Source of the DNA: Streptomyces sp. Go-475 | GTDB lineage: Bacteria > Actinomycetota > Actinomycetes > Streptomycetales > Streptomycetaceae | Direction of reading: 5' to 3' | Length of the DNA: 64,000 nt | Assembly (NCBI RefSeq): GCF_003330845.1 | Contig: NZ_CP026121.1 | Span: 2,895,501 to 2,959,500, forward strand | Part shown: positions 25,585 to 30,493 of the stretch, piece after piece | How positions within the stretch are numbered: the stretch's first letter is position 1 | How the letters are laid out: the number at the start of each line of letters is the position of its first letter | Made by a program: the position numbers and the translations under genes | The notes under the pieces: generated by a model | The model's database searches: none | What the model was told of the DNA's origin: nothing | Seen by the model: only the letters and a program-made list of their open reading frames with translations

Positions 25585-26694
25585 GTGTCCTTGTCCGTTG
25601 CGGACGCCGTCCTGCTGGCCGCCGGCCCGTCGCCGTCGCCGAGCCCGTCGGATATGCAGTCCCCGAGAGTGCCCTCGCTCCAGGACGCCCAGGAGAGCGC
25701 GACGAACGCCGCCGGCTGGGTCGAGCAGAACTGGTCGACCTGGCTCGCGATCGGGTTGCAGGTCCTGCTGGTCCTGGTCATAGCGGCCGTGCTGAGGGTC
25801 GCGGTGCGGCGGGCGATCACCAAGCTCATAGACCGGATGAGCCGCACGGCGCAGAGCTCGGACGGGAGTCCGCTGGGCGGCCTGCTGGTCAATGTCGAGC
25901 GCCGCCGTCAGCGCTCGCAGGCGATCGGCTCGGTGCTGCGCTCGGTGGCCAGCTTCCTCATCATGGGCACGGCCGCCCTGATGATCCTCTCCGCGTTCAA
26001 CATCAACCTGGCCCCGCTGCTGGCCTCCGCCGGTGTCGCGGGCGTGGCGATCGGTTTCGGCGCCCGCAACCTGGTCACGGACTTCCTCTCCGGCGTCTTC
26101 ATGATCCTGGAGGACCAGTACGGCGTCGGCGACACGATCGACGCGGGCGTCGCCTCCGGCGAGGTGATCGAGGTGGGCCTGCGCGTGACCAAGCTGCGCG
26201 GCGACAACGGCGAGATCTGGTACGTCCGCAACGGCGAGGTCAAGCGCATCGGCAACCTCTCGCAGGGCTGGGCGACGGCCAACGTCGACGTCACGGTCGC
26301 CGCCTCCGAGGACCTGGACAAGGTCAAGGCCACGCTCGACGAGGTCGCCGGGAAGATGGGCGCCGAGGAGCCCTGGAACGAGCTGCTGTGGGGCCCGATC
26401 GAGGTGCTGGGCCTGGACAGCGTCCTGCTGGACTCGATGGTCGTGCGGCTCTCGGCCAAGACGATGCCGGGCAAGTCCCTGACCGTGGAGCGCGAGCTGC
26501 GCTGGCGCGTCAAGCGGGCCTTCGACGCGGCGGACATCAGGATCGTCGGCGGCGCCACGGCCCCGGCGGAGGAGGCGCCCGACGACCCCACGGCGGGGAT
26601 GGCGGCCCCGTCGGCGTACGCGAACACGGCGTCCCCGCAGTCGGCGGCGGCGTCCCCGCTCACGCCCCCCGCGCCGACGAGCACCACGAAGTAG
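25585..26694 (+). CDS. MscS-family mechanosensitive ion channel
   Basis: A 369-aa membrane protein with a GTG start at 25585. After a short Pro/Ser N-terminus there is one helix (about residues 50-72) and another at about 116-135. The pore helix then reads SAGVAGVAIGFGARNLVTDF, the conserved MscS TM3 pattern rich in Gly and Ala. The beta domain (GDTIDAGVASGEVIEVGLRVT) and the alpha/beta C-domain follow. The last 50 residues are Pro/Ala-rich and disordered. It opens under membrane tension to release solutes on osmotic downshift. Confidence 0.94.
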   Translation: MSLSVADAVLLAAGPSPSPSPSDMQSPRVPSLQDAQESATNAAGWVEQNWSTWLAIGLQVLLVLVIAAVLRVAVRRAITKLIDRMSRTAQSSDGSPLGGLLVNVERRRQRSQAIGSVLRSVASFLIMGTAALMILSAFNINLAPLLASAGVAGVAIGFGARNLVTDFLSGVFMILEDQYGVGDTIDAGVASGEVIEVGLRVTKLRGDNGEIWYVRNGEVKRIGNLSQGWATANVDVTVAASEDLDKVKATLDEVAGKMGAEEPWNELLWGPIEVLGLDSVLLDSMVVRLSAKTMPGKSLTVERELRWRVKRAFDAADIRIVGGATAPAEEAPDDPTAGMAAPSAYANTASPQSAAASPLTPPAPTSTTK

Positions 26695-26831: not shown

Positions 26832-26846
26832 TAGGAAACTTTCCTA
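26832..26846. promoter_or_regulatory. CsnR-type operator upstream of csnR
   Basis: TAGGAAA-C-TTTCCTA, a perfect palindrome about 85 bp before csnR. As I recall, the ROK repressor CsnR of Streptomyces chitosanase genes binds an AGGAAA-TTTCCT palindrome, and its own operon carries such a box. Autoregulation is therefore likely. Confidence 0.82.
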
Positions 26847-28143: not shown

Positions 28144-28144
28144 C

Positions 28145-28258
28145 CCCACCCCCCTCGCCCTCCTCGCCACCGTCCTGGTGATGGCGCCCGTGATCCTCGT
28201 GTTCTTCTGCGCCCAGAAGGCGTTTGCAGAGGGTGTCACGCTCACCGGAGTGAAGGGT
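28145..28258 (+). pseudogene. Remnant of sugar ABC permease C-terminus (csnG scar)
   Basis: The frame directly after the csnR stop reads LALLATVLVMAPVILVFF, then AQKAFAEGVTLTGVKG. This is the hallmark last helix and V-K-G end of MalG-type carbohydrate permeases. There is no start and no upstream part of the gene, and the original stop position reads TGG instead of a stop. In related species csnR is followed by csnE (binding protein), csnF and csnG (permeases) before csnH. This stretch is therefore best read as what is left of csnG after a deletion. It also contains the AAGGG ribosome site of csnH, which may be why it survived. Confidence 0.82.
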
Positions 28259-28265
28259 TGGACGT

Positions 28266-29531
28266 ATGAAACTCACCGTGGTCGGCGGAGGTTCGACCTA
28301 CACCCCCGAACTCGTGGACGGCTTCGCCCGCCTGAGGGACACCCTGCCCGTCGGGGAACTGGTCCTCATGGACCCCGCCGAGGACCGTCTGGCCCTGGTG
28401 GGCGGCCTCGCCCGCCGCATCCTGGCCCGCCAGGGCCACCCCGGCCGGATCACCACCACCACCGACCTGGACGAGGCGGTGGACGGCGCGGACGCGGTCC
28501 TCCTGCAACTCCGCGTGGGCGGCCAGGCGGCCCGCCAACAGGACGAGACCTGGCCCCTGGAGTGCGGCTGCGTGGGCCAGGAGACCACCGGCGCCGGGGG
28601 CCTGGCGAAAGCCCTGCGCACGGTCCCGGTCGTCCTGGACATCGCGGACCGCGTCCGCCGCACCAACCCCCGTGCCTGGATCATCGACTTCACCAACCCG
28701 GTCGGCATCGTGACCCGCGCCCTGCTCCAGGCGGGCCACAGGGCGATCGGCCTGTGCAACGTGGCGATCGGCCTGCAACGCACGTTCGCCCGCCTGCTGG
28801 ACGTCGCGCCCACCGACCTCCACCTGGACCACGTGGGCCTCAACCACCTCACCTGGGAGACGGCGGTCCGCCTGGGCGGCCCGGAGGGCGAGGACGTCCT
28901 GCCGAAGCTGCTGACCGCCCACGGCGACACCATCGCCACCGGCCTCCGCCTCCCGCGCCCCCTGCTCGACACGCTGGGGACGATCCCCTCCTACTACCTG
29001 CGCTACTACTACGCGCACGACGAGGTCGTACGAGACCTCCGGACGAAACCCTCCCGGGCGGCCGAAGTCGCCGACATGGAACGGCGTCTGCTGGAGATGT
29101 ACGCGGACCCGGCCCTGGACGAGAAGCCGGACCTGCTCGCCAAGCGGGGCGGCGCCTACTACTCCGAGGCAGCCGTGGACCTGGCGGCGTCCCTGCTGGG
29201 CAACACGGGCACGCCCTACCAGGTGGTGAACACGCACAACAACGGCACGCTCCCCTTCCTCCCCGACGACGCGGTGATCGAGGTCCAGGCGGCGGTGAGC
29301 GCCAAGGGCGCCTCCCCCCTCCCCGTCCGCCCCGTGGACCCCGTCTACGCGGGCCTGATGGCCAACGTCACGGCCTACGAGCACCTCGCCCTCGAAGCCG
29401 CCCTGCACGGCGGCCGGGACCGCGTCTTCCGCGCCCTGCTCGCCCACCCCCTCATCGGCCAGTACGCGTACGCCGAGACGCTCACCGACCGGCTCGTCGC
29501 ACACAACCGGGAGCACCTCGCGTGGGCCTGA
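28266..29531 (+). CDS. csnH: GH4 family 6-phospho-glycosidase CsnH
   Basis: A 421-aa NAD+ and metal-dependent glycosidase. The Rossmann motif GGGSTYTPE sits near the N-terminus. Family signs are NPVGIVT, the metal-binding Cys in GLCN, and the GLNHLTW histidine. GH4 enzymes cleave phosphorylated glycosides by an oxidation/elimination mechanism. With the next gene (sugar kinase) it should split intracellular phosphorylated chitosan oligosaccharides. It overlaps csnK by 10 bases. With the csnEFG importer gone, its substrate must enter by another route, or the gene is losing its purpose. Confidence 0.9.
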   Translation: MKLTVVGGGSTYTPELVDGFARLRDTLPVGELVLMDPAEDRLALVGGLARRILARQGHPGRITTTTDLDEAVDGADAVLLQLRVGGQAARQQDETWPLECGCVGQETTGAGGLAKALRTVPVVLDIADRVRRTNPRAWIIDFTNPVGIVTRALLQAGHRAIGLCNVAIGLQRTFARLLDVAPTDLHLDHVGLNHLTWETAVRLGGPEGEDVLPKLLTAHGDTIATGLRLPRPLLDTLGTIPSYYLRYYYAHDEVVRDLRTKPSRAAEVADMERRLLEMYADPALDEKPDLLAKRGGAYYSEAAVDLAASLLGNTGTPYQVVNTHNNGTLPFLPDDAVIEVQAAVSAKGASPLPVRPVDPVYAGLMANVTAYEHLALEAALHGGRDRVFRALLAHPLIGQYAYAETLTDRLVAHNREHLAWA

Positions 29532-30493
29532 CCGCACGTGTCCTCGCGATCGACGCGGGCAACAGCAAGACGGACGTCGCGATCGTGACGGCGGACGGAG
29601 AAGTCCTGGCCACGGCACGCGGGGACGGCTTCCGCCCACCGGCCGTGGGCCTCGACACGGCGATGCGAACCCTCGCCGAACCGGTCGCCCAGGCCCTCAC
29701 CACCGCCGGGACGCCCTCGGTCACCCACGTCTCGGCATGCCTGGCCAACGCCGACTTCCCCGTCGAGGAGGACCAGTTGGCGGTGGCCCTGAGGTCGCAC
29801 CACTGGGGCACGACGGTGACGGTCCGCAACGACACCTTCGCGATCCTCCGCGCCGGCGTCACCGAACCCCGGGGTGTCGCGGTCGTCTGCGGCGCGGGCA
29901 TCAACTGCGTGGGCATGCGCCCCGACGGCCGCACCGCCCGCTTCCCCGCACTCGGCAGGGTCTCCGGCGACTGGGGCGGCGGCTGGGGCCTGTCCGAGGA
30001 GGCCCTGTGGCACGCCGCCCGCGCGGAGGACGGCCGCGGCGCCCCCACCGCCCTCGCCCACACCCTCCCCGCCCACTTCGGCCTGCCCTCCATGTACGCC
30101 CTCATCGAGGCCCTGCACCTGGGGCACATCCCACCGCCCCGACGCCACGAACTGACTCCGGTCCTGTTCACCACGGCCGCCGACGGCGACCCGATCGCCC
30201 GCAGGATCGTGGAACGCCAGGCCGAAGAGGTCGTCTCCATGGCGGTGGTGGCCCTGACCCGCCTGGACCTCCTGGCCGAGGAGACCCCCGTCCTCCTGGG
30301 CGGCGGCGTCCTGGCAGCTCGCCACCCACAACTCGACGACCACATCGAGCACTTGCTCAGGAGCCGGGCGCCCAAGGCGGTACCACAGGTGGTGACGGCG
30401 AGCCCGGTCCTGGGGGCGGCATTGCTGGGACTGGACAGGGTGGGGTCCGGAAAGGGAGCACAGGAGCGATTGCGGAGGCACTTCGACGGGTGA
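29522..30493 (+). CDS. csnK: BadF/BadG/BcrA-type sugar kinase CsnK
   Basis: A 323-aa ASKHA-fold kinase. The GTG start at 29522 is inside the end of csnH. The phosphate-1 motif is AIDAGNSKTDVAIV, with VRNDTFAIL and GAGINCVGM as further ATPase-fold segments, and SGDWGGGWGLSEEALW as in N-acetylglucosamine-kinase-like members. In S. coelicolor, CsnK phosphorylates chitosan oligosaccharides, which keeps them in the cell and generates the CsnR effector or CsnH substrate. Assignment is from family plus operon context. Confidence 0.87.
   Translation: MGLTARVLAIDAGNSKTDVAIVTADGEVLATARGDGFRPPAVGLDTAMRTLAEPVAQALTTAGTPSVTHVSACLANADFPVEEDQLAVALRSHHWGTTVTVRNDTFAILRAGVTEPRGVAVVCGAGINCVGMRPDGRTARFPALGRVSGDWGGGWGLSEEALWHAARAEDGRGAPTALAHTLPAHFGLPSMYALIEALHLGHIPPPRRHELTPVLFTTAADGDPIARRIVERQAEEVVSMAVVALTRLDLLAEETPVLLGGGVLAARHPQLDDHIEHLLRSRAPKAVPQVVTASPVLGAALLGLDRVGSGKGAQERLRRHFDG

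Follow-up and report, generated by a model that had tools for sequence, protein, structure and literature searches.

A short csnR-csnH spacer in Streptomyces sp. Go-475 as the probable scar of a csnEFG importer loss, one of many in the genus

The window, a 64,000-nucleotide stretch of Streptomyces sp. Go-475 (contig NZ_CP026121.1, positions 2,895,501 to 2,959,500), carries a csn locus in which a repressor gene, csnR, is followed after a 122-base spacer by the genes csnH and csnK. The features of the locus and of the spacer are as follows, in window coordinates:

25585..26694, + strand: upstream neighbour gene of the csn locus, which we take to encode an MscS-like channel
26833..26845, no strand assigned: CsnR box AGGAAACTTTCCT (genome positions 2922333-2922345), an exact match to the consensus given in the available part of PMC6097792
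26932..28143, + strand: csnR, ROK-family repressor, 403 aa, intact (Pfam ROK and winged-helix)
28144..28156, + strand: remnant of the csnR-csnE intergenic region, by alignment to the Streptomyces olindensis locus (L032)
28155..28170, + strand: TCGCCCTCCTCGCCAC, probably left over from the csnE signal-peptide region (exact 16-base match)
28165..28259, + strand: 3'-terminal csnG remnant, with 31 codons as far as VKG and the stop replaced by TGG (alignment to S. olindensis L032)
28253..28257, + strand: probable csnH ribosome site AAGGG, within the last csnG codons (direct reading)
28266..29531, + strand: csnH, GH4-family glycosidase, 421 aa, intact (Pfam Glyco_hydro_4 and 4C)
29522..30493, + strand: csnK, BadF/BcrA-type ATPase and putative saccharide kinase, intact (Pfam BcrAD_BadFG, scanned from 29525)

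According to the accessible portions of PMC6097792, csnREFGHK is an operon under CsnR, CsnEFG is involved in the binding of chitosan oligosaccharides and in their transport, and (GlcN)2 is the strongest competitor for CsnR binding in vitro; the portions available of PMC5635096 and PMC6520443 agree. The order csnR-E-F-G-H-K, which the first-pass annotation of this DNA had given for S. coelicolor and S. lividans, matches the same portions of PMC6097792. The window shares with the csnREFGHK of S. coelicolor and S. lividans the gene order, the ROK repressor with its upstream CsnR box, and a GH4 gene (csnH) followed by a kinase gene (csnK). Repressor, glycosidase and kinase remain, as the annotation had held; all three frames are open and matched to their Pfam families, and csnR is 96.8% identical to that of S. 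olindensis. Unlike the S. coelicolor and S. lividans operons, the window has no csnE, csnF or csnG between csnR and csnH, where only 31 csnG codons and a probable csnE fragment are left in the 122 bases after the csnR stop.

This spacer (28144-28265) encodes a MalG-type C-terminus that ends in VKG and has neither start nor stop. In intact relatives the CsnG protein ends in LTMAATVLVMAPVILVFFFAQKAFVEGVTLTGVKG and a stop codon comes next; the spacer reads ...ATVLVMAPVILVFFCAQKAFAEGVTLTGVKG, with TGG at the position of the relatives' stop. Positions 28165-28259 match the end of the S. olindensis csnG at 90 of 95 bases (score 82.5), and a different scoring gave csnG a best value of 87, compared with at most 17 across 60 shuffles, a comparison biased slightly toward the observed value in that 98 reference loci were used for it and 30 of these for the shuffles. 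The 67-residue open frame across the spacer matched no family in a Pfam scan, and the identification of csnG therefore rests on alignment to relatives. The alignment bears out the earlier reading of the spacer as the end of a MalG-type permease without start, body or stop, and the suggestion that the remnant supplies the csnH ribosome site agrees with the position of AAGGG. The earlier estimate of about 38 remnant codons has to be corrected, with csnG contributing 31 (28166-28258).

The 16-base match of the putative csnE piece occurs once in the 3242-base csnR-csnH interval of S. olindensis, and the piece overlaps the csnG remnant over a shared CGCCAC. In two relatives (L106 and L182), a longer CTCGCCCTCCTCGCCACCG is found at the site of the csnE piece, and CGCCACCG is shared with csnG. 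The longest exact match at this place was 15 bases (from three start points), and 83 stretches taken downstream in other loci gave no match longer than 13. The assignment of 28155-28170 to the csnE signal-peptide region is thereby supported rather than proven. Read from its sequence, the scar looks like a mosaic of an intergenic piece, a csnE piece and a csnG tail that two deletions at short shared sequences would have produced.

For comparison, the best 80 of 524 CsnH loci in the genome collection were kept as relatives. In S. olindensis (L032), the 3242 bases that separate csnR from csnH contain csnE (445 aa), csnF (314 aa) and csnG (297 aa), and csnEFG is found at this same place in three further close relatives (G229, G197 and G026). 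The earlier deletion claim would have failed if close relatives lacked csnEFG here and the stretch did not resemble a permease end; the relatives carry the genes and the stretch is the csnG end, and csnEFG has thus been deleted from this place. Four of the best 80 have short csnR-csnH spacers (sp. 378, 60 bases; SID8352, 79; CC208A, 181; NK08204, 126), and eight have no csnR match, seven of these eight on short contigs. A genus search added G009, with a spacer of 75 bases.

Importer-less csnR-csnH loci (for instance G009/L112, sp. 378/L037, G160/L123 and G090/L174) resemble the window in lacking csnEFG, in having spacers of 27 to 576 bases and, often, in a csnG tail that is still recognisable, and they differ from it by the junction. 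In sp. 378 (L037, whose csnH is the same as that of G281), the spacer includes the csnE ribosome site and runs up to a start codon now used by csnH, such that the csnE start region is joined to the csnH start codon. The junctions of G009 and sp. 378 are both unlike that of the window, and each lies within a clade of intact relatives. Other rearrangements were seen at single loci. S. adelaidensis (L066, 5082-7993) has a partial deletion in which csnR matches to about residue 163 and a csnF/csnG remnant precedes csnH, with no csnE match over 250 residues. In L123 (G160, oriented 1664-2113), csnE 1-106 stands directly before csnG 254-297 in one frame, a would-be chimera of about 150 residues, and a similar join near a contig end in G211 (L128) has the two pieces in different frames. 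In L122 (G172, oriented 1374-1579), the csnR match is split by about 200 extra bases, with no stop inside the frame.

The Go-475 genome is a single contig of 8570609 bases. A genome-wide check for csnE with S. olindensis CsnE as query, as the first-pass annotation had proposed, gave 21 matches, all at 34% identity or less (best E 4.6e-26, at 31%), and hence no CsnE ortholog elsewhere in the genome. The single contig and the different junctions of other genomes make an assembly artefact unlikely.

The distribution of the importer was surveyed in 392 Streptomyces genomes, a sample of the genus that includes Go-475. Genomes were scored CsnE-positive at a match of 1e-120 or better, the negatives having nothing better than 1.5e-40, and CsnH was scored present at 1e-180 or better among CsnE-less genomes, the CsnE and CsnH classes being assigned by eye. 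CsnE was positive in 304 genomes and negative in 88; in the available part of PMC4663542, CsnEFG-type transporters are described as detected in almost all streptomycete genomes. CsnH is kept in 58 of the 88 CsnE-less genomes, doubtful in 4 and absent in 26, and every CsnH-negative genome is also CsnE-negative. None of the 304 CsnE-positive genomes is without a CsnH-level match, a statement about match level and not about intactness; the weakest match (3.1e-96) exceeds paralog level, and no CsnE-positive genome therefore lacks CsnH outright. In about ten CsnE-positive genomes the CsnH match lies between 1e-96 and 1e-180. In one of these genomes (G141; locus L197, 5716-7936), csnH and csnK each match in two overlapping pieces and the csnE, csnF and csnG matches are full length; the apparent frameshifts may be sequencing errors, or else this is a rare instance of hydrolase-first decay.

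Loci were examined from all 62 CsnE-less genomes with sure or doubtful CsnH. Among 195 loci, 99 were intact, 49 (duplicates included) had short spacers of 27 to 576 bases, 16 lacked both csnE and a full csnR end in the more than 3 kb examined upstream of csnH, and 31 were of unknown state. Fifteen of the 16 corresponding genomes have no CsnR match better than 6.9e-73, and csnH and csnK persist in them; the remaining one, L066, keeps a csnR fragment. Similarity to the csnG end exceeded all 60 shuffles in 30 of 47 non-redundant short spacers (by at least 5 points in 24), and similarity to the csnE start did so in 13 of the 47; here too, observed scores drew on 98 references and the shuffles on 30. 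Upstream of csnH, 41 of the 47 have a loose RBS-like motif, a raw count without a chance control. Replacement by a neighbouring transporter was considered and rejected for the 16 loci without intact csnR, where no new sugar transporter was the nearest upstream frame (that frame only, of at least 150 codons and high third-position GC, judged by eye); an MscS-like protein was the nearest upstream frame to csnH in 9 of them, also by eye.

The number of losses was estimated on a csnH tree, a gene tree rather than a species tree, built by quick search with SH-aLRT support from the 192 csnH rows of the 195 loci, or 178 once identical ones were removed. Of the loci with unknown state, 28 short ones were set intact from the CsnE survey and L128 was set to loss; L137 and L154 were left unknown for the tree counts and taken as importer-less, from the CsnE survey, in the kinship-paired test described below. 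The window is sister to S. olindensis (SH-aLRT 99), and the clade nearest to it is mostly intact. G009 falls among the intact S. coeruleorubidus, S. swartbergensis, S. africanus and S. afghaniensis (support 99). Similarly, sp. 378 lies within an intact clade (98), with weak support for its exact place beside G197 (53). With gains allowed, the fewest state changes were 23, or 20 when short-spacer loci alone were used. When losses only are permitted, the resolved tree needs 31, a count that falls to 25 if branches below 80 are collapsed and to 14 if those below 95 are. On these counts, Streptomyces appears to have lost this importer repeatedly and independently.

The usual companion of the csn genes outside the operon, a GH46 chitosanase under a CsnR box, was not found in this genome, which has no GH46 (PF01374) match; S. 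olindensis has one. According to the portion of PMC4663542 available, a chitosanase mutant has higher sensitivity to chitosan. GH46 occurs in 283 of the 392 genomes: in 248 of 304 CsnE-positive genomes (56 have none) versus 26 of 58 that are CsnE-less and CsnH-positive (Fisher p 4e-8, kinship ignored), with a full or nearly full match in 24 of these 58. It is present in 8 of the 26 genomes without CsnH and in 1 of the 4 in which CsnH is doubtful. In a test that respects kinship, with 14 independent pairs, an average of 4.6 pairs went the same way and 0.6 the other way (median p 0.125); p was 0.07 with two GH46 fragments counted as absent and 0.06 with short-spacer loci only. The trend toward co-loss of importer and GH46 persists under kinship without reaching 0.05. 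Genome size is a partial confounder of the association: importer-less genomes are smaller (7.44 vs 8.67 Mb; 80 genomes, with hand-chosen comparators), and importer state still adds on top of size (p 0.005).

Among the 17 genomes of the loci singled out by name, 13 have GH46, namely all 10 intact members of the wider clade of the window (including S. olindensis), SID8352, L066 and L080, and it is absent from the loss strain CC208A, from the intact relatives of that strain (L100 and L103) and from NK08204. GH46 fragments were seen in two importer-less genomes (G281, C26:30847-30996; G088, C1:3701897-3702199), as if chitosanase genes were decaying there too. A CsnR box one base off the consensus lies upstream of GH46 in 7 of 8 loci scanned, including that of S. 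olindensis. In the Go-475 genome, a backwards control pattern gave 5 matches versus 2 for the box, and one-mismatch boxes alone therefore mean little; a possible second CsnR target with such a box, at 4740107, was set aside as it sits within a reading frame. The chitosanase families searched were GH46 and GH75. A GH75-family gene is present in the Go-475 genome (G000, C1:409914-410309, 72.5 bits). It was rejected as the missing chitosanase: such genes were found in 18 of 19 genomes tested (this one and 17 of 18 others), and are therefore uninformative on importer state.

YN00 estimates of selection on the remaining csn genes were unstable, and changes were counted instead, polarised with relatives. 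The ratio of nonsynonymous to synonymous changes in the csn genes was 44:37 on the window branch versus 18:43 on that of S. olindensis (p 0.004). The neighbouring genes gave 106:81 versus 33:75, and 38:38 versus 20:58 when abcB, which has many ambiguous sites, was left out. As the neighbours also gained an excess of nonsynonymous changes on the window branch, relaxed selection specific to csnR, csnH and csnK was rejected. The first-pass annotation had offered two consequences, a decaying locus or another importer that feeds the pathway. Decay gains indirect support from the absence of GH46 here and its presence in S. olindensis; the open frames and the lack of extra relaxation leave room for another importer.

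Two explanations would remove the loss itself. An assembly that collapsed or omitted csnEFG is very improbable, given a single-contig genome without a CsnE ortholog, a remnant that carries substitutions, including the lost stop, and junctions that differ in other genomes. That the importer-less arrangement is ancestral here, with csnEFG gained by relatives, leaves scarcely any room for belief. Tree change counts alone cannot separate gain from loss, but the csnG remnant contradicts ancestral absence at this locus, as do, more widely, the csnG-end similarity of 30 of 47 short spacers, the intact sister and a nearest clade that is mostly intact.

Other explanations concern what the remaining genes now do. 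Another importer, such as a chitobiose or multi-sugar ABC system, could supply the substrate of a working csnRHK pathway in which csnEFG was redundant. DasABC and NgcEFG, for instance, are like CsnEFG in being ABC importers of chitin-derived sugars in Streptomyces, and differ in being described for N-acetylated sugars (available part of PMC6167110). The intact genes and CsnR box, the lack of csn-specific relaxation (44:37 versus 106:81 in neighbours on the window branch), the retention of CsnH in 58 of 88 CsnE-less genomes and the GH75-family gene are all consistent with such a substitute. Nothing in the genome exceeds 34% identity to CsnE, although a different importer need not resemble it; the 16 loci without intact csnR have no new sugar transporter as nearest upstream frame (by eye), and GH46 is more often missing from CsnE-less genomes. 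This explanation is possible but on the unlikely side. A further step down in probability is an import-independent job for csnRHK, for example on amino sugars released inside the cell, for which the genes would be kept wherever the importer goes. The asymmetry between 0 of 304 CsnE-positive genomes without a CsnH-level match and 58 of 88 CsnE-less genomes with CsnH would fit it, as would the persistence of csnH and csnK in 15 genomes without a good CsnR match; but that asymmetry is equally expected if losing csnH does harm only in cells with a working importer, and any such job is dispensable, since CsnE and CsnH are both missing from 26 genomes. Equally doubtful is the specific proposal that csnR-csnH-csnK survives deletion of the importer as a minimal unit, controlled by CsnR, that serves an inner source of amino sugars; the usual route to it would be repeated csnE-csnG deletion, the csnH ribosome site lying within csnG.

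It is quite likely, instead, that csnEFG was lost in place here and left the spacer as its scar, one of many inferred losses in Streptomyces in which the importer goes and the hydrolase and kinase stay; the best reading of this strain is that importer and GH46 chitosanase are gone and that repressor, hydrolase and kinase are intact. One deletion probably fused the last csnG helix to the csnE signal-peptide region at the shared CGCCAC(CG), and another probably took the csnE start; both would be younger than the divergence from S. olindensis. The 3' edge of csnG was probably kept because the csnH ribosome site lies in its last codons. The known chitosan-oligosaccharide route would thereby be lost to the strain. 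The importer may be the harmless first gene to lose, since oligosaccharide import without CsnH would lead to their accumulation. The evidence favours importer loss preceding hydrolase loss, and a loss of chitosan feeding. As a counterpoint to this best reading, open csnR, csnH and csnK with an exact CsnR box are an outcome that simple decay does not predict.

No mention of csnEFG loss was found in the portions of open-access literature searched. With 88 of 392 genomes lacking a CsnE ortholog, chitosan-sugar uptake looks like a trait that has been lost many times. Intact and deleted strains can be compared in close pairs, and the deleted ones serve as natural knockouts for asking what CsnH and CsnK do without the importer. 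Why csnHK outlasts the importer is the interesting part of the finding.
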